In this document: in pieces, positions 2,528 to 24,665 of the stretch | Layout: every line of letters starts with the position of its first letter | Numbering within the stretch: the first letter of the stretch is position 1 | Source: Burkholderia ubonensis subsp. mesacidophila | Lineage (GTDB): Bacteria; Pseudomonadota; Gammaproteobacteria; Burkholderiales; Burkholderiaceae | DNA: 64,000 bases | NCBI RefSeq assembly: GCF_002097715.1 | Contig: NZ_CP020738.1 | Coordinates: 1-64,000 of the forward strand | Reading direction: 5' to 3' | Program-made: the position numbers and the translations under genes | The notes under the pieces: model-generated | Database searches by the model: none | The model's input: only the letters and a program-made list of their open reading frames with translations | What the model was told of the DNA's origin: nothing

Positions 2528-2545
2528 TGGTCTAATTCAGCATTC

Positions 2546-3923: not shown

Positions 3924-4367
3924 ATGCAATTGACGCGCGTGACACTTGTGATACTGCTCGGCGGCATCGCTGGCTGTGCTCAGCCGCCTGTTGCGGTGGA
4001 TACGACGGGGCGAATGCTCGACGCACAGCTCAACGAATCCGCTCAAAAAATCGATCGTCTGCTCGGTGACATCTCGCGCGCCGGCGGCTTGTCCGCGCTC
4101 GCGCCGAGATCGGGCAGCGTGACCATCAACGGCGACCTTGTAACGGTTCAGTGGCAAGGGGATGCCCCCGAAGTATTGCGCAAGCTCGCCGATGCAAAGG
4201 GCTTGAAATTTGCCGTGATGGGGCGCGCGGTGCCGATCCCCGTCTCCATCGACACGACGAACTCGAACTTCGTGCAGGTTCTCGAAAACATCGGCACGCA
4301 ACTGGGTGCTCGTGCCGACGTCGTGTTGCGGACCGACACCCTCGAGATCCACTACCGTGCAATTTGA
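3924..4367 (+). CDS. dotD: DotD (TraH) outer-membrane lipoprotein
   Basis: 147 residues starting MQLTRVTLVILLGGIAGCAQ: a signal peptide with a clear lipobox (IAGC), then a DotD-like domain with a secretin N0-type fold pattern (VTINGDLVTVQWQGDAPEVL, LENIGTQLGARADVVL). DotD with DotC targets DotH to the outer membrane. I use the ATG at 3924 because it places the signal peptide at the N-terminus; the frame is open upstream to 3639 without a plausible protein. First gene of the dotDCB-icmT-pil operon. Confidence 0.85.
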   Translation: MQLTRVTLVILLGGIAGCAQPPVAVDTTGRMLDAQLNESAQKIDRLLGDISRAGGLSALAPRSGSVTINGDLVTVQWQGDAPEVLRKLADAKGLKFAVMGRAVPIPVSIDTTNSNFVQVLENIGTQLGARADVVLRTDTLEIHYRAI

Positions 4368-9082: not shown

Positions 9083-9095
9083 GGCCGGGGGAAAT

Positions 9096-10346
9096 ATGTC
9101 GGCTTCAATCGTAGCCGTCGACGGCCAGCACGTCGTGTTCGGGCTGGACTGGGTCCCGCTGGCGGGCGATACGTCCGAGAAAAAGGAGGTGCGCACGCTC
9201 GTCGCGGATCTGGATGCGGCGTTCGAGGTCCGCTACGCCAACGAGCACGCGATCATGTTCGGCTTTCTTGCCGACAACGATGTGCCGGACGGGCTTTCGA
9301 AGGCGGCGAAATCGAAGCTGCTTTCCGCGTCCGTCCTGTTGGCGACCTTCCCGCAGATCACGTCGAACGCGATCTGGATCGAGGTGGACGGGCAAACCGC
9401 GCGCATGGCCGTTCTCAAGGACGGCTTGCCGTTGCCGTCCGGCGACTTCTGCGGCGACATCGCGGACGCGGAAGACCGGATCCGGCAGATCGAGGCGGAT
9501 AGCGGCGTGTCGTTCACGTATTACGGCAACTTCGCGTCGGTGTACGGCGGCAGCATTCCCATCACGCTCGACGAGCTCGTGCGGGAAGCCAACGCCACGA
9601 CCGCGACGCTGAAGCGCGCGAGCAAGGGCGTCAATCTCAAGCAGATCGGCCTGCTCGTGCTGCTGGTCGGGATTGGCGCTTATCTCGTTCTTCCCGACAT
9701 GATGAAGCCGCGCAAGCCCGTCGCACCCAAGCAAGAGGACCCGAACGTCACGTATCAGCGAACGATCGGCGAAAGGCTGGCGGCCGAGGGAGCGCCGGTG
9801 AGCGCGGCGATGCCGGCGCTGCTCGGCGACTGGAACATCGAGATCCTTCAAGGCGGGTGGGTGCTGTCGAAGGTCCTGTGCCAGGTGTCGTCGTGCGTCT
9901 ATACGTGGGAGGTCGTCGGCGGGAACTTTCAATCGCTCGTGGCGGCGCTTGGCCGCAAGCCCTACAACTTCGCGCTGGACGGAAAGACGGCGTCATACGA
10001 AGTGCCGAATCCGGCCGTCAGGGAAACACGCGTCGACCAGCGTTCGCTGTCGTCCTTCGACGACTTCAAGTTCCGGGAAGGCGCACTGAGGCAGGATCTC
10101 GCGCTCGTGGGCGCGACGCTGTCGTTCGACGAGCCGTCGGTGTTCGGCGCGGACCCGAGGCTGAATCTCTCGGCGCTGCACGACGTCGTGCGTTCCGGTG
10201 CGGTTCACGGCATCGGTCCCGCGGCGCTCCTCCAGAACATCCTGTCCAGATTGCCCGACTCGATCGTGATCGATCGCGTCGAAGTCGCCACGAACGGGGG
10301 CGACCCGAAGTTTTCGTTTGAGGGGAAATACTATGTCAGGAACTAA
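9096..10346 (+). CDS. pilO: PilO, thin-pilus inner-membrane assembly protein
   Basis: 416 residues. N-terminal cytoplasmic part with an actin-like PilM-type beginning (VDGQHVVFGLDWVPL), one transmembrane helix near residues 190-205 (IGLLVLLVGIGAYLVLPDMM) and a periplasmic domain. This layout is that of IncI-type PilO2, which stands in for PilM/PilN/PilO of other type IV pili. It sits between pilN and pilP with a 13-base gap from pilN. Its end overlaps the pilP start by 14 bases. Confidence 0.82.
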   Translation: MSASIVAVDGQHVVFGLDWVPLAGDTSEKKEVRTLVADLDAAFEVRYANEHAIMFGFLADNDVPDGLSKAAKSKLLSASVLLATFPQITSNAIWIEVDGQTARMAVLKDGLPLPSGDFCGDIADAEDRIRQIEADSGVSFTYYGNFASVYGGSIPITLDELVREANATTATLKRASKGVNLKQIGLLVLLVGIGAYLVLPDMMKPRKPVAPKQEDPNVTYQRTIGERLAAEGAPVSAAMPALLGDWNIEILQGGWVLSKVLCQVSSCVYTWEVVGGNFQSLVAALGRKPYNFALDGKTASYEVPNPAVRETRVDQRSLSSFDDFKFREGALRQDLALVGATLSFDEPSVFGADPRLNLSALHDVVRSGAVHGIGPAALLQNILSRLPDSIVIDRVEVATNGGDPKFSFEGKYYVRN

Positions 10347-10896
10347 GGCCATCGCGCTCGCGCTCGCCCTCGCCTCCTTGAGCCACGCGGCAGCCGCGGA
10401 CACGCTTTCGTCGCTCGTGGACAAGCAGCGTCAGGTCATGGGCCGCGAGCTCGACAAGAAGCTTCAGGACGATGGCCCGGGTTCGAAGACCGCGCCGCCG
10501 CCGCCACCTGCGGCAGCCGCGCCGGCCCCTGCCAGCGTCGCGACGGAAGCATCCGCGAAGAAGGCGCCGCATTCGGTCGCGGACGACCTCAGGGTGAATG
10601 CGATCTACGGCGTCAACGGCGTCACGACCGTCGACGTCTCGATCGGCGACGGTCCCTCCTATCCGATTACGAAGGACAGGTCGATCAAGGGTTGGTCGAT
10701 CGCCAAGGTGTCGCCGTCGTCGGTCACGTTCGTCAATGCGAAGACGCGCGCGCGCAAGACCATCTACCTGGCGGAGCCGACGGCCGCGCCTGCGCCCGCG
10801 CCCGCCGCGCAGGCGCCCGCTTCGTCCTTCGGCTTTTCGCCATCGATGCCCATGCAGATGGGCGTGCCGCCGCTCCCGAGAACGAGCGCTCAGTAA
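10333..10896 (+). CDS. pilP: PilP, periplasmic pilus assembly protein
   Basis: 187 residues from ATG 10333, preceded by a strong ribosome site GAGGGG inside pilO. Signal peptide (MSGTKAIALALALASLSHAAAA), a coiled stretch (LVDKQRQVMGRELDKKLQDD), a proline/alanine-rich linker, then a small beta domain (VNAIYGVNGVTTVDVSIGDG, WSIAKVSPSSVTFVN) typical of PilP family proteins, and a low-complexity Ala/Pro tail. PilP links the inner-membrane PilO to the secretin. Confidence 0.82.
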   Translation: MSGTKAIALALALASLSHAAAADTLSSLVDKQRQVMGRELDKKLQDDGPGSKTAPPPPPAAAAPAPASVATEASAKKAPHSVADDLRVNAIYGVNGVTTVDVSIGDGPSYPITKDRSIKGWSIAKVSPSSVTFVNAKTRARKTIYLAEPTAAPAPAPAAQAPASSFGFSPSMPMQMGVPPLPRTSAQ

Positions 10897-10917
10897 CCTG
10901 CCCTAGGAACGGGAATC

Positions 10918-12666
10918 ATGGCAACGTCGTATCTCGGAAAGTGGATTGGACGCTTCGTCGAAAGCTCCCATGGTGCTCAGACGCAGAAGCCGGTCGCGCG
11001 TCCTGCGACGTCCAAGCCGGCGTCGGGGCGCGGGCACGCTCAAGCACCGCACAAGCCGCTGCCGAGCTTGCCGACCGTGACGTCGGTTGCCGAGCTTCCG
11101 TCGATCCAGCACATTTACACGGCCGCCAAGGCCGAGTTCGAGATTCCGGATTCGCTGAAGCTGGCGCTCGTTGCGACGGGGCATGAAGGCGGCACGGCAA
11201 GCATGCTCGTCGATCCTGCCGCCTTCCGGCAAGCGTCGATCCACGTCGACAGCCTGCGCGAGCGTCTGCGGAAGTCACAGATACGCGTCACGAAGCTGGC
11301 GTTCGCGGATCGCGACCTGATTGCCGCGATCTACAAGACCGAGCGACGCGGCGAGTCGATCGAGGATGCCGCGCCGAGCGTATCGGAAGAAAGCCGCCTG
11401 TTCGAAACGTTCATCCGATACGGCATCGACAACCATGCGACGGACATTCACGTCGTCGTGAAGGGGCAGCATGGTGTCGTGAAGTTTCGAATCGACGGCA
11501 TCATGGAGGTGATGCGGGGGCCGACCAACGGCATCTATACGCGCGAACAGGTCGTCGGCGCGTTCGGCTACGCGTACAACAAGCTCATCGGCGACCGGAC
11601 CGGCTCGCATTCCTCGTTCACGAGCGACGACTTCCAGTCCGGGATGATTCCGTATCGTGTCGGCGACCGGGCGATGAACCTGCGCTGGCAATCGGCGCGA
11701 GGATTCGAGGGGTTCACGGTCTACATCCGGTATCTGCTGAAGGACAAGACGTTCAAGGCGGAGCGGTTTCAGGACTTCGGCTACGAGGACGACCAGGCCG
11801 AGATGTTCACCCGCGTCGGGCGCACGCGCAAGGGGATGATCCTCATTTGCGGCGAGACGAACTCGGGCAAATCCACCGCGCTCACCCACTACATCGAGAC
11901 GCTGCCGGACCGCGACCTGCTCAACATCATCATGGTCGAGGATCCCGTGGAAAAGGAAGTGGCGGGAACATCGCTGCAAATTTCGCTGCAGCGCACGCTG
12001 TCGGTCGATTCCGAGAAGACGCCGTTCACCGAGGTGCAGGGCGTGCTGATGCGAAGCGATCCCTGCATCATCGCGCAGGGGGAAATTCGGGACCTCGATT
12101 CCGGAACATGCGCCAAGACGCTCCTGGAATCGGGCCACCAGGTGCTTGCCACGACGCACGCCCCCGGCATCATGGACGTGTTCGTTCGGCTGACCAGCAG
12201 CGAAATCGGCTTCTCGATGGAATCCCTGACGCGTCCGCGCTTCTGGTCGCTGGTCGCCTGTCAGGCGCTGGTCCCGAAGCTTTGCTGGTGTTCGCACGAT
12301 CAGTACGCGGATGAAACGATTCCGCACATCACGGAGTTCATCCGCGCTCGCTTCGATATCGACACGTCCAGGATGCGCACGAAACGCGACGGCGGATGCG
12401 ACTCGTGCGGCGGGCGCGGCACGAAGGGGCAAACCGTGGTGGCGGAGATCTATCAGCCGACGCGCACCTTCCTGCAGGAATTGCGCGACGGGCACGACTT
12501 CGAGGCCGAGCGAATCTGGCGCTCCGATAGCGACAAGCGCTTCGACTCGCCGAACATGCGCGGGAAGACGATGTTCGAGCACGCGCTTTACAAGGCCTAT
12601 ATCGGGCTTATCGATCCGAGACAGGTCGAGACGTTCGACCTTTTCGACCAGTACGAGATCGTTTGA
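10918..12666 (+). CDS. pilQ: PilQ, thin-pilus assembly ATPase
   Basis: 582 residues, GspE/PilB-like. N-terminal basic linker, N1-type domain, then ATPase core with Walker A GETNSGKST at about residue 310, EDPVEKE aspartate box, Walker B region IIAQGEIRD and the histidine box ATTHAPGIMD. A four-cysteine zinc site is visible (KLCWCSH ... GCDSCGGRG), as in assembly ATPases. It drives pilus extension together with PilR. 21-base gap from pilP, 9 bases before pilR. Confidence 0.9.
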   Translation: MATSYLGKWIGRFVESSHGAQTQKPVARPATSKPASGRGHAQAPHKPLPSLPTVTSVAELPSIQHIYTAAKAEFEIPDSLKLALVATGHEGGTASMLVDPAAFRQASIHVDSLRERLRKSQIRVTKLAFADRDLIAAIYKTERRGESIEDAAPSVSEESRLFETFIRYGIDNHATDIHVVVKGQHGVVKFRIDGIMEVMRGPTNGIYTREQVVGAFGYAYNKLIGDRTGSHSSFTSDDFQSGMIPYRVGDRAMNLRWQSARGFEGFTVYIRYLLKDKTFKAERFQDFGYEDDQAEMFTRVGRTRKGMILICGETNSGKSTALTHYIETLPDRDLLNIIMVEDPVEKEVAGTSLQISLQRTLSVDSEKTPFTEVQGVLMRSDPCIIAQGEIRDLDSGTCAKTLLESGHQVLATTHAPGIMDVFVRLTSSEIGFSMESLTRPRFWSLVACQALVPKLCWCSHDQYADETIPHITEFIRARFDIDTSRMRTKRDGGCDSCGGRGTKGQTVVAEIYQPTRTFLQELRDGHDFEAERIWRSDSDKRFDSPNMRGKTMFEHALYKAYIGLIDPRQVETFDLFDQYEIV

Positions 12667-12675
12667 GAGGCATGG

Positions 12676-13803
12676 ATGGGAGCAGAACTCAGCAGATTGA
12701 AGGCGGCGGCGTCCGATACCCTGGGACGCCTGAGCGAGAAGAACGCGATTCGGCGATTCCGCAGCACGCGGGAAGACTTCTATGTCGACCTCGCCGAAGC
12801 GATCAAGGACAAGGAGCCGGTGGCAAAGTTTCTTTCCATCCGCCGCACGCGCGCCATCGAACAGAAGGATGCGTTTGCGCGGCTGTACCAGATTTTTCTA
12901 GACCGTCTCGAGCAGAAGGGGGGTTCCCTTTCGCACATGCTGAGCGACGTGGTGCCCGACGGCGACCTGATGGTGATCGCGTCCGTCGAGCAGCGCGGTG
13001 ACGTCCACGAAGGCCTGCTCTTCCTGGCCCAGACCATCAAGAGTCAGCGCGCGATGGCGGGCGAGATGGCGGCGGCGCTGGCTGTGCCGGTGCTCGTGAC
13101 CGCCGTGTGCGTCGGCTTCATCATCATGCTGTCGTTCTTCGTGATCCCGGTGTACGAGTCGATCGTGCCGCCGTCGAAGTGGAACGCGATGGGGAGGTCG
13201 ATCTACATGGTCTCGTATGTGACGCGGCATTACGGGCTGCTCATCGTCGCGGGGTTCGTTGCCGCGATGTGGTGGTTCGTCTGGTCGATTCCAAACTGGC
13301 GCGGCCGTCGGCGCGTCAAGTTCGACGACTACATTCCCTATCGCGTCTTTCGCGACTATCACGGGGCCATCTTCATGGTCGCGCTCGCGTCGCTCATGGT
13401 TTCCGGCGAAACGCTGGTGCGGTCCCTTGAAAAGCTGAAGCGCCGTGGCAAGCCCTGGCTGCGATGGCACATCAACGCGATTCTCGGCCGACTGCTGACG
13501 AAGAGTCGAAATTATGGCGAAGCTTTCGCGACGGGCATCTTCAGCCAGCAATTGTCGAATCGGCTGATCGATCAGGCTCGCCGCAGTTCGGATTTCAACG
13601 AAGTCATCAGGAAGATGGGGATCGAGGGGATCGAGAAGACCAAGGAGGAGGTTCGCAAGTCCGCGAAGCGCCTCAACCTTGCGTTGATCTTCGTGCTTGG
13701 CGGGGTGGTCGCGTATTTGCTGATGGGGACGCTCTATACCGCCCAAGGCCTGAGCGCCGGCATCCGCGAAACGGTTCGTCACCACAACGTTTCGAAGCAT
13801 TAG
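12676..13803 (+). CDS. pilR: PilR, inner-membrane pilus platform protein
   Basis: 375 residues of the GspF/PilC family: two homologous cytoplasmic helical repeats (EDFYVDLAEAIKDKEPVAKF ... and RVFRDYHGAIFMVALASLMV ...), with transmembrane helices near residues 135-160, 188-208 and at the C-terminus (LALIFVLGGVVAYLLMGTLY). It anchors PilQ and the pilin assembly site. Last gene of the operon that begins with dotD; after it come 98 bases with the next palindrome. Confidence 0.88.
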   Translation: MGAELSRLKAAASDTLGRLSEKNAIRRFRSTREDFYVDLAEAIKDKEPVAKFLSIRRTRAIEQKDAFARLYQIFLDRLEQKGGSLSHMLSDVVPDGDLMVIASVEQRGDVHEGLLFLAQTIKSQRAMAGEMAAALAVPVLVTAVCVGFIIMLSFFVIPVYESIVPPSKWNAMGRSIYMVSYVTRHYGLLIVAGFVAAMWWFVWSIPNWRGRRRVKFDDYIPYRVFRDYHGAIFMVALASLMVSGETLVRSLEKLKRRGKPWLRWHINAILGRLLTKSRNYGEAFATGIFSQQLSNRLIDQARRSSDFNEVIRKMGIEGIEKTKEEVRKSAKRLNLALIFVLGGVVAYLLMGTLYTAQGLSAGIRETVRHHNVSKH

Positions 13804-13848
13804 CCGAGCGGGGCCGGCAACGTCGCGCGCATCGTCGCGCATCTAATG

Positions 13849-13868
13849 CGTATAATTGTATTGATACG
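13849..13868. promoter_or_regulatory. Shared 20-bp palindrome, site 5, upstream of pilS
   Basis: CGTATA-attgtatt-GATACG, with symmetry extended by TG/CA. It overlaps a TATAAT string at 13851-13856 that could be a -10 box, so bound protein would block transcription of pilS. It lies 33 bases before the pilS start. Confidence 0.6.
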
Positions 13869-13901
13869 CAAAAACCACTCACTACTGCTATGGGGGAAAT
13901 C

Positions 13902-14447
13902 ATGATCACAATGTCGAAACGTCTGCGTCAGCAAAGGGGCTATTCGTTGGTGGAGTTGTCGATCGTCGTGGCGATCATCGCCCTGCTGATCTACGGGGTC
14001 GTGAAACTGGTCAACGGCATTCTCGCGGACCACCGGGCAAATGCCGAGCTGTCGGAAATGCCCACGATCATCACAAAGATCCAGAAGATCTACGCGAACC
14101 GTCCGAACTTCTCCGGCGCGACGCAAGCGATCCTGGTGAACAACAACGCATTCCCGGCCGATTGGGTCGTCACCGGCAGCACCAACCTCGTGAACCGCTG
14201 GAGCGGGACGGTCACGCTCGCGGTTGCAACGATCGGGGCGATTTCGAACAACGCCATCACGCTCACGACGACCGGCGTGCCGGACTCCGAATGCAAATCG
14301 ATCGTGCCCGGCATGGACGACTCGGTCCGGACGACGGCGGTGAACGGCACGGTGGTCAAGCAAGATGGCAAGCCGAGCGACCCCGCACTGACGGGTACGT
14401 CCTGCGCCAACGGGACCAACACGATCATCTATACGTTCAGCAAGTGA
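13902..14447 (+). CDS. pilS: PilS, major thin-pilus prepilin
   Basis: 181 residues. Type IV prepilin leader MITMSKRLRQQRG followed by the mature N-terminus YSLVELSIVVAIIALLIYGV, with glutamate at mature position 5. The C-terminal domain has a cysteine pair (SECKS ... TSCANG), typical of the disulfide loop. Start ATG 13902 is chosen for the GGGGG ribosome site at 13892-13896; ATGs at 13890 and 13911 are in frame. It has its own promoter region with the shared palindrome. Confidence 0.9.
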   Translation: MITMSKRLRQQRGYSLVELSIVVAIIALLIYGVVKLVNGILADHRANAELSEMPTIITKIQKIYANRPNFSGATQAILVNNNAFPADWVVTGSTNLVNRWSGTVTLAVATIGAISNNAITLTTTGVPDSECKSIVPGMDDSVRTTAVNGTVVKQDGKPSDPALTGTSCANGTNTIIYTFSK

Positions 14448-14459
14448 CGGGGTGCGAAC

Positions 14460-15470
14460 ATGGACGCGCTAGAGATAGATGACATGCTGCTCCTGGAGGC
14501 GGCGACGTATTCCGACTGGCACGTGGATATCGCGCGTCCTGAAACGTCGGTGGTGTTTCGGGAAGTGAACGAAGCAGGTGACGCGCTGGCGGAGGCGAAG
14601 CCGTCGCGCGTGCCGGCGTCGATGATGCCGGTGCTTCACCTGATGCTCAAATGGCTGCGGGCGCACCGCGACGCAGGCAATCAGCATTCGTTTGCCATGA
14701 ACGTCGGCAACCTGCGGTTTCGGGGCGAAGTGATCCGCGCCGATCGCTATGCCCTTCGCCGGACGCGCCAGGAGGTCGAGACCCTTGAATCCCTGAAACT
14801 CGGGCGGGCCGCGGAAGAGCTGCTGCTGGATCCGGAGTTTCGGTCGGGTGGCCTGATGCTCGTGACGGGCGATACCGGTGCGGGCAAATCGACCACCATT
14901 CGCTCGGCGGTCAAGGCGCGTCTCGAAAAGTACGGCGGGTACGCGCTCGCGGTGGAATCGCCGATCGAGGTTGAATTCGAAGGCTTTCACGGGGACGGCT
15001 ATCTCGAGCAGGTCGACGCGACCAACATGGGGTACCGGTACGAAGTCGAGACGGCCATGCGCAAGTTCCCCGCCGCGACGCGCAGCATGTTCATGTTCGG
15101 CGAGGTGCTTGGGCAAGACGCGGCGGCCGAGCTGGTGCGCCTTTCGCCGAGAGGGCATTTCGTGATGACGACGATTCACGGCGAGTCGCCGGAGGCGGCC
15201 ATCAAGATGCTCATCACGCTGGCGGAGCGCGGCGGTGAATCGTATGCACGCCAGCTGCTCGGGACGTCGCTGCGAGGGGTGCTTCATCAGCGCCTCGTGC
15301 GCGGCAAGCCGGTCGTGCAGTGCTTCAAGGTCAGCGACATGATCCGCAACGTCATCGGAAACTCGGATGCGCCGCTCTCCAATCTGACGAACGCCATCGA
15401 CCAGGCCCGTCGCGAACTCGCATCGCAGGCGCTCCGCGGCGCGCCGTCCCAGCCGCGCATGCACTTGTAA
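14460..15470 (+). CDS. Second PilT/PilB-like ATPase, between pilS and pilV
   Basis: 336 residues with Walker A GDTGAGKST at about residue 138, an acid box ESPIEVEF, Walker B-like MFMFGEVLGQDAA and a histidine box MTTIHGESPE. It is shorter than PilQ and lacks the zinc cysteines, so it resembles retraction-type (PilT) ATPases more than assembly ATPases. IncI thin-pilus clusters are usually described with PilQ as the only ATPase. In Walker B the usual acidic residue is E (GE), present here. It lies in the pilS-pilV operon, 12 bases after pilS. Confidence 0.8.
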   Translation: MDALEIDDMLLLEAATYSDWHVDIARPETSVVFREVNEAGDALAEAKPSRVPASMMPVLHLMLKWLRAHRDAGNQHSFAMNVGNLRFRGEVIRADRYALRRTRQEVETLESLKLGRAAEELLLDPEFRSGGLMLVTGDTGAGKSTTIRSAVKARLEKYGGYALAVESPIEVEFEGFHGDGYLEQVDATNMGYRYEVETAMRKFPAATRSMFMFGEVLGQDAAAELVRLSPRGHFVMTTIHGESPEAAIKMLITLAERGGESYARQLLGTSLRGVLHQRLVRGKPVVQCFKVSDMIRNVIGNSDAPLSNLTNAIDQARRELASQALRGAPSQPRMHL

Positions 15471-15479
15471 AGGCGGCTT

Positions 15480-16913
15480 ATGGCACTCCACATTCGGCGA
15501 ATGCTGATCGGCTCGCGCACCCGCCAGCGAGGGATGTACGACCTGCTGTCGATCGGCATCGGCGCGACTATCGCGATCGCGGGAGCGACTGTCGGTCTCT
15601 GGCAGAAACGGCAGGACATGCTGGCGGAGCAGATGGCCGCGCAGGGCGACATCGTCCGGGATATCGGCAACAGCATCAACGGCCAGTATCTGTCGAAATA
15701 CTATTCCAATCTCGTGAACGGCACGGGGGTTCCGGGTGTGGCGAATGCTTATGCGCCGACGATGGCGGAGCTGCAGGCCATCAACGTGCTGCCGGCCGGC
15801 CTCGCGACGACGAGCGCCTACGGCACGCCGTATGTCGTCTCGCTCGCGAAAATCCCTGCCGCCTGCGTCGCGCCGAACTGCGATGTCGGAGGCGTGGTGT
15901 ATATCGCCGGCGCCATCACCGATCCGTCGACGGGGAACCCCATGCCGCTCGGCGATGGGGCCGGGTCGATCGGCGGAGATGGCGGGTATTCGGACCTCGC
16001 GTCGCCCGGCACGATCACGGGCATGAACGGCGGCTGGTCGCTGGCGAATCCGATGGGGGGCGTCGCCGGCGTCCTGGCGATGCGTGTCGGGTACGGCTCG
16101 AGCGGTTGGTCGGCATATGTGCGTCGTGACGGCTCGCTGCCGATGGAAGGGGATCTCAACTTCCTGGGTACGACGGGTGCGCGGCACAACATTGCGAATG
16201 CGCAGACGGTGAATGCGCAGCAGTTGGTCACGCCTGCCGGCAACGGTGTGCAAATCGGTGGATCGCTGCTCTACGGAGACGGGAGCAATTCGGCAATTCG
16301 GCAGAACGGCGCGCTGTACGTTCAAAACGCGGCGGGCAACGCGGCGGCGGATATCAATGTCGGCAATGCGAATGCGTCGGGTAGCGTGAACGCGTCGGGT
16401 AACGTGAATGCGGCCGGCAACGCGAATGCATCGCTGGATCTCGTCGCCGGACGGAACGTGTGGGCCTCCAACGGCGCAGTGACGGCATCGTGGCTGCATT
16501 CGACAGGAAGCGTGCAGATTGACAGCAGTGCGCAGGTCAACGGCTCGGCGAACGTCAACGGCACGATTTCGTCGGGAAGCCGGCTGTATTCGAACGAATA
16601 CGTGCAGGTCAATGGCTGGGCAGCGCAGGGCGCAAGCTGCTCTCCCAACGGGTTGATCGCCAACTCCGGTAGCGGCCCACTGTTTTGCCAATCCGGTGTG
16701 TGGAAATCCCCCGGGGAATTTCCGGTCAATACGTTGTGCGCTTCTATAACGGAAGCAATCTCGTCCCCGACGGAACGGGTTGTCAGCCCAATCCGTACAC
16801 CGGATCATGCAGTTGTCCCGCCGGCGCACGGGATTCGGCATGACCTCCATTACGCACCTGGGAGGGCTGGTCGTTGTTCGCCGTACGATCCGCCAGCGCG
16901 CTGGGGATCGTGA
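15480..16913 (+). CDS. pilV: PilV, minor pilin/tip adhesin with shufflon-encoded C-terminus
   Basis: 477 residues as read now: 408 constant residues up to the shufflon site (CQSGVW encoded at 16686-16703) and a 69-residue tail from cassette A. N-terminus RTRQRGMYDLLSIGIGATIA is prepilin-like, with cleavage after G; the usual glutamate at +5 is not present. The middle has a beta-rich repeat region with many N-A/N-V units (GNANASGSVNASGN). PilV tips recognise recipient lipopolysaccharide in IncI mating. The current tail looks out of frame (see cassette A entry). Same operon as pilS. Confidence 0.85.
   Translation: MALHIRRMLIGSRTRQRGMYDLLSIGIGATIAIAGATVGLWQKRQDMLAEQMAAQGDIVRDIGNSINGQYLSKYYSNLVNGTGVPGVANAYAPTMAELQAINVLPAGLATTSAYGTPYVVSLAKIPAACVAPNCDVGGVVYIAGAITDPSTGNPMPLGDGAGSIGGDGGYSDLASPGTITGMNGGWSLANPMGGVAGVLAMRVGYGSSGWSAYVRRDGSLPMEGDLNFLGTTGARHNIANAQTVNAQQLVTPAGNGVQIGGSLLYGDGSNSAIRQNGALYVQNAAGNAAADINVGNANASGSVNASGNVNAAGNANASLDLVAGRNVWASNGAVTASWLHSTGSVQIDSSAQVNGSANVNGTISSGSRLYSNEYVQVNGWAAQGASCSPNGLIANSGSGPLFCQSGVWKSPGEFPVNTLCASITEAISSPTERVVSPIRTPDHAVVPPAHGIRHDLHYAPGRAGRCSPYDPPARWGS
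16685..16703 (+). repeat. Shufflon recombination site sfx-1
   Basis: 19-base copy TTGCCAATCCGGTGTGTGG in plus orientation, encoding C-Q-S-G-V-W in pilV. It is nearly the same as the known IncI/R64 sfx repeat (GTGCCAATCCGGTnnnTGG). Rci recombines such sites only when they are inverted relative to each other; sites 2 and 3 are both inverted relative to this one. Confidence 0.93.
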
Positions 16914-17132
16914 CAGCGAAGCAAAATGACCAGCCCATCCCATGTGCGTAATAGCGACTGGCCGGCGCATGTATCCGTAATCCCCGTGCGCCGCTGGGAC
17001 ACTGCATGATCCGGTGTACGGATGGGCCGTTGACAACCCGTTCCAGCGAGCGACGAGATTGCCCGTCCCGATTGATGAAGCGCACTCGAAGTATTGTACC
17101 AAGGCCAAACTTCACCGCCGTGAGGCCCGTTT
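16704..17132. other. Shufflon segment with opposed cassettes A and A', both looking degenerate
   Basis: Two related tail sequences face each other: an arm at about 16773-16812 reappears inverted at 17001-17042. Cassette A (plus) is in frame with pilV until 16913, but PilV-like peptides lie in another frame: VVRFYNGSNLVPDGTGC, PNPYTGSCSCPAG, then after a TGA at 16841 EGWSLFAVRSASALG. Cassette A' (minus, from sfx-2) stops after CQSGVWKRASRR, with related peptides in other frames. Both seem to have suffered base gains or losses, or the sequence has small indels here. Confidence 0.7.
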
Positions 17133-17151
17133 CCACACACCGGATTGGCAA
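17133..17151 (-). repeat. Shufflon recombination site sfx-2
   Basis: Inverted 19-base copy, identical on the minus strand to sfx-1. Recombination with sfx-1 would flip 16704-17132 and give pilV a short tail ending KRASRR. Confidence 0.93.
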
Positions 17152-17187
17152 ACTACGCTCGGGACCATCAAAAGCCCCGAGCACGCT

Positions 17188-17901
17188 TCAATTTCCGTCG
17201 TCGAGTGCCCCGTTAGGCAGCGCTTTGCCGCCGCGCGGGGGAGTCCGCGCAGCGCATGCGCGCGGAAAAGAAAAGTCCCGGCTGAGAAAGACGCTCGAGG
17301 TGGATGCGAATGCGTTGATGGGCGAGAACCCACTGAATCGAATCTCGATAAATCCAGCGTCGGCCAGCAAGTCTGCGGTGCGTGGATACCATTCGGCGTT
17401 GTCCAAAATGATCATTCCACCGGGAGCAATGATGTCGATCGCAGTACGTGCCGACCGATACCGTTCGGCGCCGTCGACGACAACAACGTCAAATCGACGC
17501 GGCGCCAATATTTTGGGGGTTTGCGAGTATCGATGGCCGTCGGCCTCGTGAAAAAGGGTCACATTTTCTGGCACACGTCCCTTCAAGGACTCGTACCACC
17601 CTGCATCGAACTCAACGCTTACGACTTTGCGGGCACGAGCTGCCCAAAACATGGTTGATGCACCTGCCCCGAACTCGAAAACGTCTTTCTCAGCGAAATC
17701 TAGACCGTTGAGGTACTCAATAAGAGGATACGTAAGCCACGGCTGGAAATTCCCATTGCCATCTATAGGCATGCCGTCAATTCGCCGCGTGTGGCCGTGC
17801 TCGCCGAAGAATATCTTCTGCAGTCGAGCAGTCACCAGCATTCGCCGCGGTACAACTTTCCGAATAAGGTCGGTGATCAACAAGGTAGTCCCCTCAAGCA
17901 A
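17188..17901 (-). CDS. SAM-dependent methyltransferase carried inside the shufflon
   Basis: 237 residues. Class I methyltransferase core: SAM motif I DVFEFGAGASTMFWA at about residue 76, motif II acid VVSVEFD, motif IV-like RFDVVVVDGAER, then APGGMIILDNAEWY. No DNA-methyltransferase catalytic motif (no NPPY/DPPY or PC) is seen, so a small-molecule, glycan or protein substrate is more likely. Start uncertain: a TTG at 17901 is used, an ATG at 17841 is possible. It lies between sfx-2 and sfx-3, in the same direction as pilV cassette C and just after it, so inversion across sfx-1/sfx-3 would put it directly downstream of pilV. Confidence 0.8.
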   Translation of the reverse strand: MLEGTTLLITDLIRKVVPRRMLVTARLQKIFFGEHGHTRRIDGMPIDGNGNFQPWLTYPLIEYLNGLDFAEKDVFEFGAGASTMFWAARARKVVSVEFDAGWYESLKGRVPENVTLFHEADGHRYSQTPKILAPRRFDVVVVDGAERYRSARTAIDIIAPGGMIILDNAEWYPRTADLLADAGFIEIRFSGFSPINAFASTSSVFLSRDFSFPRACAARTPPRGGKALPNGALDDGN

Positions 17902-17958
17902 TCTGAGTGCGGAATTGTACGCTGGCGACAGCGGTAAGGCATACGTACCTCGGACCTC

Positions 17959-18204
17959 TCAGTCCATGCAGGAAACTTGAATGCCAGATGAATCTGGCGA
18001 ATTGTTTTCGACGCCCCAGTACCATTCGACACCGTTTTGGGCGAGTGGGACAACGCCGGAGTTGTTGTTGGGACCGTTGACACCAAAAGCCCAGCAGAAC
18101 TTGAACCAACCCAGCCCAACGTTCGTCCAATTCGTGTTGTAGTACGGCCCCATGTTGTACCATCGGGTGAATCCGCCTGGTGGCACCCAAACACCGGATT
18201 GGCA
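17959..18204 (-). CDS. PilV cassette C, intact silent tail
   Basis: Read on minus from sfx-3 the frame gives CQSGVWVPPGGFTRWYNMG and about 80 residues ending in ...IQVSCMD, rich in Trp, Tyr and Asn, as expected of a PilV receptor-binding tail. It joins sfx in the same codon phase as pilV, so inversion between sfx-1 and sfx-3 would fuse it in frame. It has no start of its own and is silent in the present orientation. It is the only tail here that is clearly intact. Confidence 0.85.
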   Translation of the reverse strand, partial: CQSGVWVPPGGFTRWYNMGPYYNTNWTNVGLGWFKFCWAFGVNGPNNNSGVVPLAQNGVEWYWGVENNSPDSSGIQVSCMD

Positions 18205-18205
18205 A
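18187..18205 (-). repeat. Shufflon recombination site sfx-3
   Basis: Minus-strand copy TTGCCAATCCGGTGTTTGG, one base different from sfx-1/sfx-2 (T instead of G at position 16). Same orientation as sfx-2 and inverted to sfx-1. Bases 18206-18302 up to the rci stop hold nothing I can identify. Confidence 0.92.
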
Positions 18206-18302
18206 GGCGATGCTCGGCACATCCTGAAGCGTCGTTGCTGAATCAACGAAGTCGTTTGGAAGGGATCGTTCCTGCGTGAATCGGCTGACCGGACAGGCGG
18301 AC

Positions 18303-19454
18303 TTACAGCGGATCGATCAGCACTGCGTGGCCATTCTCTTCGTATTCGAACAGCGGCGTCGGAGTGGGTGGTTTCCTGGAGTCGCGGACCATGCTGACCA
18401 GTTCGCGCAGCAGCACATCCCGGGCTCGGGCTGCGACTTCATCCGCGTCCGTGCCCTCGAGCCGGAGGTGCGCAAAGTCCATGAACTGCAACGTCACGCG
18501 TTGCTCGTCCCTTTCGATCATGGCCGGATACGGCACGATGGCTTGCGAGATGACACGCTTGCCGCGGTGAAGCATCTTCCTCCCGTCCAGCTTGGCGACC
18601 ATGTTGGACGCTTTCAGGTGCGTGTACCGCTTCAGCATCTGCATCGACTTGTGGCCGCTGATGGTCGCGATCTCCATCATGTCGAGCGTACCGAGCTCAA
18701 ACAGTCGCGACACTGCCTCGTGTCGAAGGTCATGGAAATGCAAGTCATCGATTTCAAGACGCTGAACAAGCGTTCTCCAGGCGCTCTTGAAACCGTCGGA
18801 CGTGTATTTGAAAATGCGGCCCTCCGGTTTCGTTCCGAGGCGCGTCAGCACATCCATGGCTCTCATCGAAAGCGGCACGTCGCGTTTCGATCCATTCTTG
18901 GTCAGCGGCAAATGGGCGATTCGCGTGCGCAAGTTGATGTTTTCCCATTGGAGATTGAGCAACTCGCCTTGCCGCATCGCGGTCTCGATCGCCAGCACGA
19001 TCAATGCATGGATTTCGATGTTCCGATGCGCGGCGGCAGCACGAAGCAGTCGACGTTCTTCACCGAAGCTGACCCGCCGGTCCCGTCCGGGCGGGAGCTT
19101 GGGCTTGCGCACGCGCGATACGGGATTGTCCTTGCAGATGCCCCACTCGATGATGGCAATGTTGAACAAGTCCCTGAGCAACGCCAGTTCGAGTCGCACC
19201 GTGTTGGGTGCGATGGGGCGGTTCGTGTTGCGGGAGGGCGACGAGAGGCGAATATCCCGGTAATTCGCGATATCCACCGTCGTCAATTCGGAAAGCACCT
19301 TCTCCCCGACGAAGCTCTTTGCAATCGTCGACGCGCGATACATTTCCTGCTTGTATCCCCGCTTCTCGATGGAGACGCTCTTTGTGTATTGGGCCAGCGC
19401 ATCGCGTACGGTAATCGACGGAGAAGGCTTGAAGATGAGGCGACTTTCAATCAA
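18303..19454 (-). CDS. rci: Rci, shufflon-specific tyrosine recombinase
   Basis: 383 residues, the length of R64 Rci (about 384). Conserved tyrosine-recombinase residues: arginine in LAIETAMRQGELL, HxxR box LHFHDLRHEAVSRLFELG, GH in TISGHKSM, and catalytic tyrosine in KRYTHLKAS. The N-terminal SAM-like domain includes ANYRDIRL and NTVRLELALLRDLFNIA, and a C-terminal extension of about 85 residues follows the tyrosine, as in Rci, where it is needed for sfx inversion. It faces pilV across the shufflon, as in IncI plasmids. Confidence 0.93.
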   Translation of the reverse strand: MIESRLIFKPSPSITVRDALAQYTKSVSIEKRGYKQEMYRASTIAKSFVGEKVLSELTTVDIANYRDIRLSSPSRNTNRPIAPNTVRLELALLRDLFNIAIIEWGICKDNPVSRVRKPKLPPGRDRRVSFGEERRLLRAAAAHRNIEIHALIVLAIETAMRQGELLNLQWENINLRTRIAHLPLTKNGSKRDVPLSMRAMDVLTRLGTKPEGRIFKYTSDGFKSAWRTLVQRLEIDDLHFHDLRHEAVSRLFELGTLDMMEIATISGHKSMQMLKRYTHLKASNMVAKLDGRKMLHRGKRVISQAIVPYPAMIERDEQRVTLQFMDFAHLRLEGTDADEVAARARDVLLRELVSMVRDSRKPPTPTPLFEYEENGHAVLIDPL

Positions 19455-19478
19455 TTTTCGATCTCTAACTGCGCGCGA

Positions 19479-19739
19479 TTATTCATGGGAGGCTTGTGCC
19501 TGGTGATTTGCCTCGAGAGTCAGTTCGACTGGGGCAATCAAATCGACCAATGGAACATCCAGGCTCCGCGCCAGTGCGAGCAAGGTGTCGAGAGTCGGGG
19601 AGCGAAGCCCGCGTTCAAGCAGCGAAATGTAGGTGCGGTCCAGATCCGTCGCCTTCGCGAGGGCGTACTGAGACAGGCCGCGGTCGTTGCGCAGCTTGCG
19701 CAGCGTCGCGGCAAATGCAATGTTGGCTTGGCTTTTCAA
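19479..19739 (-). CDS. XRE-family regulator upstream of rci
   Basis: 86 residues, almost all one Cro/C1-type helix-turn-helix: LRKLRNDRGLSQYALAKATDLDRTYISLLERGLRSPTLDTLLALARSLDV. It ends 24 bases before the rci start on the same strand, so it may be co-transcribed with and control rci. An inverted repeat just upstream (19785-19803) is a possible autoregulatory site. Confidence 0.85.
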   Translation of the reverse strand: MKSQANIAFAATLRKLRNDRGLSQYALAKATDLDRTYISLLERGLRSPTLDTLLALARSLDVPLVDLIAPVELTLEANHQAQASHE

Positions 19740-19784
19740 GATTCCGGCCCCTCGATCAGGGCCAAAATTCTCGACATGTAGACA

Positions 19785-19803
19785 ATAGTCATCAGCAGAC
19801 TAT
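19785..19803. promoter_or_regulatory. Possible operator of the XRE gene
   Basis: Inverted repeat ATAGTC-N7-GACTAT, 46 bases upstream of the XRE start. The size and spacing suit an XRE dimer. It differs from the 20-bp palindrome shared by the other operons. Bases 19804-19981 hold no gene that I can support. Confidence 0.4.
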
Positions 19804-19981
19804 AGTCCGAATTTTGTAACCGGTGCGGCGGCCGCGGTGCATTGAACTATCGCACCCGATGCCCTCGCAGCCGTGCCGAAACCGCGTCTCGCCGACGTCG
19901 AGCGCCGCGACAGGCGCGCTCCAATCCTGCTAGCGCGGCTGCGCTCGGAGATGGCAACATTCTTCCGCCTGTGCTAAATTT

Positions 19982-20001
19982 CGTATCATTGTAACGATAC
20001 A
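19982..20001. promoter_or_regulatory. Shared 20-bp palindrome, site 6
   Basis: CGTATC-attgtaac-GATACA, ending 16 bases before the start of the 80-residue gene at 20018, so it overlaps the likely promoter/leader of the 20018-21999 operon. Confidence 0.6.
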
Positions 20002-20017
20002 CATATCGGAGCTCACC

Positions 20018-20260
20018 ATGTCGCTTGCTGCATCAGCTTATCGAGAGCGTGCAAAGCGCCTGATCCCGCGCCTCGACGCATGTTACGGCCGGATCGACGA
20101 AGGGAGTGTGATCCGGTCGCACGCCATGGTCTACGCCGCCTTCCTGTCGGATTTCGTGGCCGGCCGTCTCGACGCCGACCATCCCGAGACCGTTGGCATG
20201 CTCGGATTGGCGGGTGAATTCTGCGAGCTGGTCGAGCAGGAATATCCGGCGGTGAACTAA
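20018..20260 (+). CDS. Small 80-residue protein, unknown
   Basis: Alpha-helical, soluble, slightly acidic; begins MSLAASAYRERAKRLIPRLD and ends in an acidic helix (GMLGLAGEFCELVEQEYPAVN). No known motif. First gene after palindrome site 6 and 10 bases before the next gene, so part of the operon that ends with the LuxR-type regulator. Confidence 0.65.
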   Translation: MSLAASAYRERAKRLIPRLDACYGRIDEGSVIRSHAMVYAAFLSDFVAGRLDADHPETVGMLGLAGEFCELVEQEYPAVN

Positions 20261-20270
20261 AGGGGCGGCG

Positions 20271-21188
20271 ATGACCGATTTTGAGCGAAAGGCACAGGGC
20301 ATTTTTGCCCGATTCACGGAAAAACTCGCCAAGGTCGACCTTCGGGCGGCTGTCGCGACGCCCACGGTCGTTGGCGCGGTGACGGCGACGGCGGACACGA
20401 ATGTGAAGGAAGGCGAGCTCGCGCCGCCTCCGGCCTCAGCCGGAAACATGCAAGCCCGGGGCGCGCGACAGATGTTCGCGGCGTCACTCCTGAGCGCAGC
20501 GTCGATCACGCTCGCACGAGGATTCGAGCGAATCAAAGCGGCCTTTCACGAAAAGGGCGAGCAACAGCGCGTCGAGGCGACGAAGGAATTGATCGCCGAT
20601 GCGCCGGTGCACGAGGACGGCCACTATGCGTGGGCACGCGAGCGTACGGCGGGTCGCGCCAACGAACAGGATTGGCGGAGCCGGTTCGATACGCAGATGC
20701 GCGAGCCCCCCGGCACCGTCGAAATGTTGCGCCGAGTTGCGTTGGCACATCAAGTCAACGTGCGCGACCTCGAAATTCGGGGCAACGAAGTCGTACTGAA
20801 CACGCCCCGCGGCCGCTTCTCGGCGCCCGAGTCGAATGACGCGTCGCCCTACTTCCGGCCGATCTGTCGGATCGATTCCCCGTTCTGGCGGGAAACGGAG
20901 CGGCAGGTTTACATCCTCAACCGCTATGCGCGTGCGCACGACCTGCATGCGCAGGCGCTTTACGTCCGAAACGGCGTGGTGTTCGAAGAGAACCCGGAAT
21001 CGTTCGTGGATCGACAGGTGTGCAACGTCGATTCGATCGGATGGGACGCGGCGCACCGCGCACTGATCGATGAAGAACTGGGGCATCGCTCGCCGCATGA
21101 CCTGGTCGAGCACAAGCAGATGGAACGCGACATGCACGGATCCGAAGGCACGCCGCCAAACGATCGCGCGCGAGTTCGATTCACATGA
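20271..21188 (+). CDS. 305-residue protein, unknown
   Basis: N-terminal helical, Ala/Thr/Val-rich segment, then from about residue 100 a mixed charged region (HEDGHYAWARERTAGRANEQ, EMLRRVALAHQVNVRDLEI, FWRETERQVYILNRYARAHD). No signal peptide or clear membrane helix; a weak hydrophobic patch lies at residues 66-80. I do not recognise the family. A GGGGCGG sequence sits just before the ATG. Its stop overlaps the start of the 47-residue frame (ATGA). Confidence 0.7.
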   Translation: MTDFERKAQGIFARFTEKLAKVDLRAAVATPTVVGAVTATADTNVKEGELAPPPASAGNMQARGARQMFAASLLSAASITLARGFERIKAAFHEKGEQQRVEATKELIADAPVHEDGHYAWARERTAGRANEQDWRSRFDTQMREPPGTVEMLRRVALAHQVNVRDLEIRGNEVVLNTPRGRFSAPESNDASPYFRPICRIDSPFWRETERQVYILNRYARAHDLHAQALYVRNGVVFEENPESFVDRQVCNVDSIGWDAAHRALIDEELGHRSPHDLVEHKQMERDMHGSEGTPPNDRARVRFT

Positions 21189-22294: not shown

Positions 22295-23200
22295 ATGACT
22301 GCCAACATCGAAGAAAAACGACCACCCGCTGTCATTATCTTCGCCGGGCCGAACGGCTCGGGGAAATCCACCATCACCAAGACACTCCTCGACAATCTCG
22401 AAGACTTTTCGGGCGAGTACATCAACGCCGACGACATCGCACGCAACCTGGCGAGCGACATCCCGGACGATCGCGAGCGAAACCGGGAGGCCGCTCGAAT
22501 CGCCGAGGAGCAACGCCTGAAGGCGCTGAGCGAGGGGCGTGACTTTGCTTTCGAGACGGTCATGTCGACACCCGAAAAGGTTGCGCTCATGACACAGGCA
22601 AAGGCGCACGGCTATCAAGTGTCGCTCGTCTTCGTCACGACCGAGGATCCCGAAATCAACGTCGGGCGTGTCGCCGACCGCGTTGCCACCGGCGGCCACG
22701 CCGTGCCTCCGGATACGGTCCGCCGACGGTATGTCGCGGCGATGGACTTGCTGCCGGCTGCCTTCGAGCATGCGGATCATGCAACCGTATGGGACAACTC
22801 GGAAGACGATGCTCGCCTGGTGGCGACGAAGGCCCACGAGCAGGTCGAATTTCCCGCCAAGGATATCGAGGTGCCATGGGTCGCCGAGAAGCTGGCCGAG
22901 CCGTACATGCAGCGCCTGGCCTCCCGGAAGCTGCTGTCGGCCTCGCTCAAGGACGGCCGGCCGGTGCAGGTCGCCGAGGCTGTTCACGGGAAGGACTACG
23001 TCGGTCAGGTTCTCCGCGCCACGAGCCACCATGTCCTGCAGGAAGTCGAAGGCGAACTGTTTCTGCACGATCGGAAGCTTGCCGCGACGGCGACGTTTGA
23101 CGTCGGGCAAGAGCAGGCAGTCAGCTATCGCTATGAGTACGGCAAGATCGCGCCGGTCGATGCGCCTGCGCCGGCGGCCCGGCCACCCGCGCCGAAGTAA
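22295..23200 (+). CDS. Zeta-toxin-type kinase with KfrB-like C-terminal domain
   Basis: 301 residues. N-terminal P-loop kinase: Walker A FAGPNGSGKSTITK at about residue 16, YINADDIARNLA, FETVMSTPEKV and RRRYVAAMDLL, all as in zeta toxins (UDP-N-acetylglucosamine kinases). The last 80 residues (DYVGQVLRATSHHVLQEVEG, LFLHDRKL, VSYRYEYGKI) look like the KfrB domain of plasmid proteins. So it may be a maintenance toxin or a plasmid-type accessory kinase. It faces the minus operon ending at 23344. Confidence 0.82.
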   Translation: MTANIEEKRPPAVIIFAGPNGSGKSTITKTLLDNLEDFSGEYINADDIARNLASDIPDDRERNREAARIAEEQRLKALSEGRDFAFETVMSTPEKVALMTQAKAHGYQVSLVFVTTEDPEINVGRVADRVATGGHAVPPDTVRRRYVAAMDLLPAAFEHADHATVWDNSEDDARLVATKAHEQVEFPAKDIEVPWVAEKLAEPYMQRLASRKLLSASLKDGRPVQVAEAVHGKDYVGQVLRATSHHVLQEVEGELFLHDRKLAATATFDVGQEQAVSYRYEYGKIAPVDAPAPAARPPAPK

Positions 23201-23343: not shown

Positions 23344-23838
23344 TCAGCGACGGCCCAGGATGCGCCAGCGGCGCAGCCGCTGGATAATACCGCCGCGCTC
23401 GCCATCGTGGCTGCCGTGGTCACGATTCGTTTCGTCATCGTTTTCGTGCGGCTGGCTTTCCGCCGTGCGCGGCGCCTCTTCGGGCGGTTCGCCTCGGGAT
23501 TGCCTGAAGCCGTTCTCTGCCGCGACTTTCATTGCGTCTATCACGAACAGATCCCGCTCTCCCTTCAGGACCTTCCTGATCCACGCATGCGGCACGTACG
23601 ACTCGCCGTTATAAATGCCGATCACCGCCGGCGGATCGTTCAGGGCGCGCTTTTCGGCGCCTTCGACGCCGTCGGGATGAAGCAGCGCCGGGATCATCGC
23701 CTCGCCGATGGCTTCGCAAAAGCCGATCCAGCCCATGTCGACGCCTTCCTTGCTGACGATGTGGAAGAACGCGACCGGCGTCTTCGCTTTCGCGCGCATG
23801 GCGACCATGTGGCCGTTGGGGAAATTCAATTGCGTCAT
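23344..23838 (-). CDS. 164-residue protein coupled to prepilin peptidase, unknown
   Basis: Soluble protein (MTQLNFPNGHMVAMRAKAKT ... VAFFHIVSKEGVDMGWIGFCEAIGEAMIPALLHPDG) with a charged C-terminal tail rich in Glu, His and Arg. Its ATG overlaps the stop of the prepilin peptidase gene (ATGA). I do not recognise the family; the coupling suggests a role in pilin handling or transfer. Confidence 0.7.
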   Translation of the reverse strand: MTQLNFPNGHMVAMRAKAKTPVAFFHIVSKEGVDMGWIGFCEAIGEAMIPALLHPDGVEGAEKRALNDPPAVIGIYNGESYVPHAWIRKVLKGERDLFVIDAMKVAAENGFRQSRGEPPEEAPRTAESQPHENDDETNRDHGSHDGERGGIIQRLRRWRILGRR

Positions 23839-24665
23839 CGGATCACCACGCCGGCAAAGAGCGTGAAAGCGCTGGCGATCGCGATGAACGGACCGAACGG
23901 CATGGCGTCTTGCAGCCGAGCGTCGCGTCTCGCCAGCATGAAGACGCCGTGCGCCGCCGCAAGACCAAACGACAACAGAAACACCTGAGGTATCGCCCAG
24001 AATCCGAGCCACGCGCCAATTGCCCCAAACAGCTTGATGTCGCCGATACCCATGCCTTCCCGGCGCGTGATAAGAAGCGACACCACCAGCACGACGCCGA
24101 GCGCCGCACACCCGCCAACCACGCCCGCGAGCGCATCCGGCAGCGTCACGAAGCCGCCGAGCGCATTGACCAGCAACCCGCAAGCGAGCAAAGGAAGGGT
24201 CATCACGTCCGGCAGCAACCCCGTCTTCATGTCGATGCACGCGAGCGCGAGCAACGAGGCGCCAAAGAGATACGCGGCACACGCCTTGCCGGTGACGCCG
24301 AATGTGTAGACGGTCGCGACCGCCAGACAGGCGGACGAGACCTCGATCGCGATATACCGCCAGGGAATAGCCGCCCCGCAGGCGCTGCAGCGCCCCCGAA
24401 GCAGAATGAAGCTGAACACGGGGATGTTTTCCCACGGTCTCAGAAAGTGACCGCAGGACGGACAGGATGATCGAGGCACGCACAGGTTGTACGTCCCGCC
24501 ATCGACAGATCGACCTTCATCGCGCGCCCATGCGCGTTCGAGCACGACCGGCAGCCGATGCACCACGACGGTCAGGAAACTCCCGATCGCAAGACCCATG
24601 ATCGCCGCACACCCCACGCTGAACCACTTCGGTAGCGACGCTAATTCCTGTATGAACTGCTGCAT
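23835..24665 (-). CDS. pilU: Prepilin peptidase (PilU/PilD type)
   Basis: 276 residues, A24-type aspartic peptidase and N-methyltransferase. N-terminal zinc motif CPSCGHF ... CSACGA; catalytic aspartates in ALACIDMKTGLLPD and GMGIGDIKLFG (the GxGD motif); about seven transmembrane helices. It should process PilS and PilV. It is away from the pil operon, in its own minus operon behind palindrome site 7. Confidence 0.9.
   Translation of the reverse strand: MQQFIQELASLPKWFSVGCAAIMGLAIGSFLTVVVHRLPVVLERAWARDEGRSVDGGTYNLCVPRSSCPSCGHFLRPWENIPVFSFILLRGRCSACGAAIPWRYIAIEVSSACLAVATVYTFGVTGKACAAYLFGASLLALACIDMKTGLLPDVMTLPLLACGLLVNALGGFVTLPDALAGVVGGCAALGVVLVVSLLITRREGMGIGDIKLFGAIGAWLGFWAIPQVFLLSFGLAAAHGVFMLARRDARLQDAMPFGPFIAIASAFTLFAGVVIR

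Follow-up and report, generated by a model that had tools for sequence, protein, structure and literature searches.

The window analysed here is the whole stretch of 64,000 nucleotides (nt) that opens contig NZ_CP020738.1 of Burkholderia ubonensis subsp. mesacidophila. It contains a type IV pilus operon in which pilV, the gene for the pilus tip protein, runs into a shufflon, with segments bounded by recombination sites (sfx) and a recombinase gene of the rci type beside them. One of these segments carries, behind an alternative PilV tail, a complete gene for a predicted methyltransferase (MT). The features on which the argument relies are the following.

15480-16684, plus strand: constant region of pilV (Shufflon_N, E=1.1e-4, below the cut-off; the Paraburkholderia fungorum PilV body is 36% identical)
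16685-16703, plus strand: sfx-1 (core at 16688-16703)
16704-17132, no strand assigned: A/E segment, two convergent pilV tails whose consensus is garbled in the window (from alignments to the contig-end copy)
17133-17151, minus strand: sfx-2 (core at 17133-17148)
17188-17883, minus strand: MT, a predicted class I S-adenosylmethionine (SAM)-dependent methyltransferase of 231 residues (longest open reading frame 17188-17901)
17959-18204, minus strand: pilV tail cassette C, intact, read from 18204 down to its stop at 17959
18187-18205, minus strand: sfx-3 (core at 18187-18202), composed of the left arm from the rci flank and the right arm from cassette C
18303-19454, minus strand: tyrosine recombinase of the rci type (PF00589, E=5e-26)

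The three sites share the core CCAATCCGGTGTNTGG, of which no further copy was found in the window even with two mismatches allowed, and which occurred a mean of 0.10 times in shuffled sequence. The 23-bp arms of sfx-1 and sfx-2 (16684-16706 and 17130-17152) are perfectly complementary, sfx-3 is one base off from the other two sites (GTTTGG), and the pilV frame is open from 15480 into sfx-1. The body of the window pilV scores 22.3 bits against Shufflon_N, for which the Pfam cut-off is 27.5; its relatives from P. fungorum and Robbsia pass that cut-off. The recombinase has about 50% identity, over 93-94%, with counterparts on E. coli and Salmonella plasmids, among them one annotated as rci. Because three sfx sites, one plus and two minus as the original prediction had stated, occur together with an rci-type recombinase, the locus is a shufflon of the Rci type, and it is associated with conjugation: I-type/Dot-Icm-like conjugation genes flank the pilus operon, with DotI and TraI-type domains on the left and DotM and coupling-protein-like domains on the right (three of the ten flanking proteins tested had no Pfam match). 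Cassette C is intact and the MT gene complete, as had been claimed; the two are codirectional and bounded by sfx-2 and sfx-3, with the MT gene behind the cassette after a gap of 75 nt. Since sfx-2 and sfx-3 are oriented alike, the C-MT segment can invert only by way of sfx-1, along with the neighbouring segment.

The assembly itself records a second state of this locus. A search of the organism's own genome for the sites found four more copies close to the other end of this 3.31-Mb contig, where the first 20.8 kb of the window (1-20786), its left third, is present a second time; the two copies are 100% identical over 1-2439, 99.97% identical without a mismatch over 2339-16704, and 99.9% identical over 18187-20786. 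This is the pattern of a circular contig left untrimmed, with the window as one of its ends. In the contig-end copy, pilV is followed by tail D, then by tail C and the MT gene in the direction of pilV, then by the A/E segment and rci. Tail D, which the window does not contain, is fused to pilV there and reads 52 residues past its site, possibly shortened by a sequence error. Here the 1,076-bp C-MT segment is inverted; one edge base is its sole other difference. There are three sites in the window and four in the contig-end copy, and their junction arms are exchanged between the copies as crossovers inside the sites predict, the outer site of the window joining the left arm of the rci side to the right arm of the C side. 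Inversion of the segment is therefore observed at the level of the assembled sequence, and we infer from the family of the recombinase that Rci is the agent.

These two states bear directly on what had been predicted. That the MT gene lies inside an invertible segment, and that inversion aligns it with pilV, is borne out by the presence of both orientations in one assembly. The further claim that adhesin choice and the MT would switch together is not supported as it stands: in the contig-end state tail D is the one fused to pilV while C and MT follow co-directionally, so tip and MT need not switch together. This state also gives the locus at least one more tail and one more site than the three-site picture from which the prediction started. 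The two cassettes placed between sfx-1 and sfx-2 are not readable as two tails in the window. Some of the stretch 16704-17132 aligns to the contig-end copy in one orientation and some of it in the other, and for this reason the A/E segment of the window looks like a consensus of molecules in mixed orientations; loss of shufflon segments from PacBio assemblies has been described (PMC5430464, accessible part).

The pairing of this tail with this enzyme recurs outside Burkholderia. The family and order genome sets used here (398 and 399 genomes) are samples; in the former, a C-type tail occurs in three genomes, the same three that carry the MT gene, and in all of them the MT gene lies 61-75 nt behind a C tail. 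Compared with P. fungorum, the window has 60% identity in the tail, 76% in the MT, 36% in the PilV body and 27% in the pilus ATPase; the corresponding values for Robbsia are 49%, 62%, 30% and 31%. Over the three loci, PilV bodies and ATPases are 27-37% identical, MT-bearing tails 49-63%, and MTs 61-76%. The shufflon of P. fungorum LMG 16225 has ten sites on one contig (locus L014), with the recombinase and one further site at another contig end (L069), and one of its segments consists of a C-type tail, the MT gene and an AT3-SGNH acyltransferase gene. In Robbsia, PilV terminates in a C-type tail and the MT gene begins 64 nt after it; no sfx site was found in this 7-kb contig, yet tail and MT are kept. 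A protein search for further C-type PilVs, which depends on shared short words, gave only Robbsia itself, and the C tail had no match in phages or plasmids and only one, non-significant, in a profile search of the PDB. Another stretch between two sites of the P. fungorum shufflon (8987-9654 of L014, minus strand), in which no pilV tail was found, holds a TumE-type toxin gene (PF20126) with a helix-turn-helix (HTH)-like neighbour.

The enzyme is a predicted class I SAM-dependent methyltransferase. We place its start at the TTG at 17883, shared by most aligned relatives, because the database copy has 231 residues. Its structure model has a pLDDT of 91.4, and class I methyltransferases make up most of its best structural matches, at TM values of about 0.5; by sequence, no relative was found among solved structures. 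Residues E76, G78 and G80 are invariant across 21 sequences, in a conserved stretch which we take to be the E-x-G-x-G of class I methyltransferases. PF13578 is annotated on some close relatives in the database table. The gene is rare: 1 of 65 genomes of the genus carries it (our own), 3 of 398 in the family and 7 of 399 in the order, most of the last at 34-39% identity. There was no match in GenBank phages, four in plasmids, all weak, and none in PHROGs for either the MT or the C tail. A role in DNA methylation or restriction was dropped, no such Pfam or NCBIfam match being found.

The relatives that could be placed, which do not include L015 (Thiomonas), L018, L031, L064 or the weak viral loci L079-L082, sit in polysaccharide clusters, prophages or pil loci. 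Those in polysaccharide clusters, with neighbours named by eye, make three independent cases. In Tepidicella (L017) and genome G486 (L063), relatives with 59-60% identity share one common gene order directly behind an apparent ABC exporter; in L066 and L068, from one genus, and in L067, relatives with 34-39% identity lie among apparent flippase and sugar-transfer genes. A prophage (L013) has its relative behind a tail fibre (Collar) and a tail-fibre assembly protein, and a viral contig (L012) has one with tail-like genes, as judged by eye. Given these positions in polysaccharide clusters and beside phage tail genes, the most likely substrate of the MT is a sugar in the surface polysaccharide of the cell itself. 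In a separate locus from Bradyrhizobiaceae (8133-10294 of L019), a fragmentary MT-family gene is next to one whose product appears acyltransferase-like by eye, possibly a methyl/acyl enzyme pair.

Consensus scans of the locus found three promoter-like sites in 3 kb, compared with 1.2 (standard deviation 1.0) in shuffles, and gave no sign of a promoter belonging to the MT, there being no site upstream of it on its strand. An account by ordinary promoter and terminator logic was dropped.

Enzymes of a similar kind are present in some other shufflons. We took 17 plasmid records through recombinase matches, hand-picked for variety from longer lists with their neighbours unseen, and kept the 13 that have at least two opposed sites (those of L086 are only degenerate); L089, L092 and L098 had no sites, and L083 had two in one direction. 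The open reading frames between sites were judged by annotation and tail length. A sugar-modifying transferase lies inside a segment in 2 of the 13. In Pseudomonas kurunegalensis (L085), a hexapeptide transferase is encoded 128 nt behind the tail that is fused to pilV; its 56% identical relative, H36, has no pil genes around it. In Citrobacter freundii (L096), the gene that follows a tail after 54 nt, on the strand opposite to pilV, encodes a hexapeptide O-acetyltransferase. Comparison with other shufflons for internal genes, which the original prediction had proposed, showed such enzymes in these two and none in the other 11. The accompanying statement that segments of the R64 shufflon family hold only pilV tails is supported for IncI1 and IncI2, as far as they are covered in the accessible parts of PMC5430464 and PMC9045228. 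The locus in the window is not unique, as shufflons of Paraburkholderia, Pseudomonas and enterobacteria also carry enzymes.

The Citrobacter enzyme allows the association to be followed further. Relatives of it with an E value of 1e-40 or lower occur in 41 plasmids, and among the 12 whose contexts were read, 10 are pilV loci and 2 place the gene next to, or one gene from, phage tail-fibre assembly genes. In all eight plasmids with sites, the O-acetyltransferase gene lies behind one type of tail, of 94 residues. Three arrangements are found: directly behind the tail fused to pilV (L101, L102, L107, L108, L110 and L111), co-directional but distal (L109), and antisense (L096). In Serratia (L103) and Erwinia (L105), where pilV has no sites, the protein also ends in this 94-residue tail type and the O-acetyltransferase gene is adjacent. 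Identities of tail and enzyme are similar in three of four comparisons (63/61, 54/58 and 84/85%), the fourth, Serratia versus Erwinia, giving 73/60%, and the PilV bodies in these loci are 38-56% identical. A further tail, in genome G076 (L071), stands behind a degenerate site and is followed 322 nt on by the gene for an AT3-SGNH protein; this protein and its P. fungorum counterpart match at 484 of 672 residues. The pairing of tail and enzyme is thus recurrent.

Some observations on these plasmids stand beside that pattern. The two O-acetyltransferases match PHROGs phage families of unknown function. In the phage-type plasmids of L104 (4492-6178) and L106 (4501-5566), the O-acetyltransferase relative adjoins tail-fibre assembly genes or is separated from them by one gene, and in L104 (IncY) an annotated lipopolysaccharide (LPS) N-acetylglucosaminyltransferase is its neighbour. 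Towards its C-terminus, at residues 349-396, the C. freundii PilV (2521-3903 of L096) contains a phage tail collar domain (PF07484), whose presence suggests that tips may have been exchanged between phages and pili. A gene annotated as LPS core heptose(II)-phosphate phosphatase (9475-10059 of L097), in Pfam a member of the histidine phosphatase superfamily, is part of the tra operon that neighbours an IncI-gamma/K1-type shufflon. The PilVA' tip of TP114 is reported to bind heptose-heptose-4-phosphate (PMC10654706, accessible part), and this phosphatase could form another pair of tip and receptor modifier.

The window shares with the shufflons of R64, TP114 and IncI2 plasmids 19-bp sites that belong to one sequence type, tails arranged convergently, a probable pilV body and an adjacent recombinase of the same family, and also the occurrence of several arrangements within one isolate (PMC5430464 and PMC9045228, accessible parts). 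It differs in that those are described, in the portions available, as holding only 3' ends of pilV, whereas here one segment is a single tail plus the MT gene. The PilV tips of R64 and TP114 bind sugars of LPS (accessible parts of PMC10654706 and PMC5430464). The type IVb pilus of PAPI-1 in Pseudomonas aeruginosa is likewise part of a conjugative element with a PilV that binds LPS, and cells with the element have altered LPS and bind less: PAPI-1 uses the common polysaccharide antigen (CPA), carriers make less CPA LPS, and the LPS of carriers binds the PilV2 tail less, although no modifying enzyme inside a switch is described (all from the accessible part of PMC5297154). In phage serotype conversion, by Sf6 Oac and the OafA/OafB family, an enzyme encoded by the element also alters the O antigen, and O-acetylation encoded by Sf6 blocks superinfection by the same phage; this is acetylation and not methylation, and no tie to an invertible adhesin is described in the part of PMC9558356 available to us. 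The exporter-linked methyltransferases of Tepidicella and G486 resemble ours as 59-60% identical relatives within the same cluster, but there the gene belongs to a polysaccharide cluster and here to a pilus switch. No report of shufflon modules combining tip and enzyme was found in the listed titles and openings of abstracts from the open-access literature, which is no proof of novelty, and none appears in the accessible parts of PMC6158609, PMC3401170, PMC11868660 and PMC3090145.

From these elements we propose that segment C is a two-gene module consisting of a PilV tip domain and, right behind it, the MT. Rci would invert segments at the sfx sites; with the segment facing pilV, the MT gene would lie in the direction of pilV transcription, probably being transcribed from that side, and with the segment facing away it would be antisense. 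The enzyme would alter the glycan bound by its partner tip, making the carrier and its sisters poor receptors for that tip, and the result would be self-avoidance or surface exclusion, with fewer self-binding or redundant mating events. We consider the chances evenly balanced that this is a switchable module of tip and surface modifier in which the MT acts on a surface sugar and masks the receptor of the partner tip. The glycan substrate, transcription from the pilV side and the masking are what we infer; the direction of the effect, masking as opposed to creation of a receptor, is proposed by analogy. The pairing of particular tips with sugar-modifying enzymes in some related switches suggests that cells may alter their own surface to match the tip on display. 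Co-expression of the MT with pilV is likely but would be loose, because the MT gene points with pilV in the inverted segment whichever tail leads, and because the gene in Serratia and Erwinia is out of line.

More broadly, shufflons with a tip and a modifier may be stochastic mating-type switches, in which the tip would select a sugar and the enzyme of the same segment would remove or mask it on the cell itself, so that clone-mates are avoided and others reached; different elements would have arrived at such switches on several occasions, using methyl, acetyl or other acyl groups, and phages would have this toolbox too, beside their tail fibres. We offer this wider reading tentatively, with somewhat more doubt than belief. 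PilV tips select conjugation partners through the sugars on the partners' surface. We know of no answer to how an element avoids spending its pilus on sister cells with the same sugars. If the proposal is true, a single invertible unit that houses both the binding tip and a surface-modifying enzyme would explain this avoidance, and also the occurrence of the same enzyme families beside phage tail fibres. For annotation it would be a warning that shufflons may switch cell-surface chemistry besides adhesins.

Several results weigh against the proposal. No such enzyme was seen in 11 of the 13 shufflons sampled by recombinase. The O-acetyltransferase genes of Serratia and Erwinia are convergent with pilV, and a shared transcript is therefore not needed. 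The window and P. fungorum recombinases are 62% identical, about like the tails, so that tail and MT may have moved with the whole shufflon and not as a separate pair. P. fungorum has a second C-type tail without an MT gene, 79% identical to the C tail of the window as compared with 60% for the MT-bearing one. In the tree of MTs, in which support values were not considered and from which the void L018 row was left out, our MT stands beside a prophage MT and the Robbsia MT elsewhere. The match of the MT to Methyltransf_24 (E=1.1e-4, 23.5 bits) is below the cut-off of 26.3, and the model of the C tail is poor (pLDDT 44), which makes sugar binding by this tail a proposal. Finally, the PilV receptors of TP114 belong to the LPS core, with no recognition of the O antigen (PMC10654706, accessible part), whereas the placed MT relatives are found in apparent O-antigen clusters.

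The same data can be read in other ways. The enzymes may be cargo for surface variation, altering surface polysaccharide for ends that have nothing to do with the tip, such as evasion of phages or host defence or serotype switching, with the shufflon as an on/off switch. The MT relatives beside the tail-fibre genes of prophage L013, in viral contig L012 and in polysaccharide clusters agree with this, as do the O-acetyltransferase relatives in the phage-type plasmids of L104 and L106. However, each enzyme keeps to one tail type across diverged PilV bodies, even where no sites were found, and we regard this explanation as possible but unlikely. It is improbable, in our judgement, that the enzyme modifies the pilus itself, either an amino acid of the PilV tip or a glycan on the pilin, and that the tip needs this modification to work. 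Such a role would fit the nearness of the enzyme to one tail type, and PglI, an AT3-SGNH protein, is placed in pilin glycan acylation (accessible part of PMC9558356), but MT relatives sit in polysaccharide clusters where no pilV was seen. Slightly less probable again is that the MT gene entered the segment by chance, in the manner of insertion sequences, and has no role linked to the pilus. An IS5 transposase gene inside a Vogesella shufflon, the TumE-type toxin gene in that of P. fungorum and the C-type tail without an MT gene in the latter species would fit such entry; against it, the order of tail and MT recurs in three genera, and the O-acetyltransferase gene lies beside one tail type in five genera, in two of them convergently. 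An assembly artefact, whereby the second orientation or the whole arrangement would come from poor contig ends, is very improbable: the window has a garbled A/E segment and lacks one tail, and PacBio assemblies are known to lose segments, but the C-MT segment is the same in both copies bar its edge base, the flanks are at least 99.9% identical, and the enzyme-bearing segment of a relative occurs in both orientations in separate complete plasmids.

The remaining features of the pilus operon and of its right side are these.

10918-12666, plus strand: type IV pilus assembly ATPase (PF00437 T2SSE, E=8.5e-42)
12676-13803, plus strand: pilus protein of the inner membrane (PF00482 T2SSF, E=1.4e-11)
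13464-14447, plus strand: open reading frame containing the probable major pilin, whose start is internal (leader RGYSLVELS, by eye)
14460-15470, plus strand: second pilus ATPase (PF00437, E=1.3e-19)
19479-19739, minus strand: small HTH regulator (in relatives, too, an HTH gene is annotated next to the recombinase)
23835-24665, minus strand: prepilin peptidase-like protein (by eye; no NCBIfam match)

Between the last two, at 22295-23200 on the plus strand, lies a gene for a P-loop protein with weak NCBIfam matches that appears zeta-toxin-like by eye.

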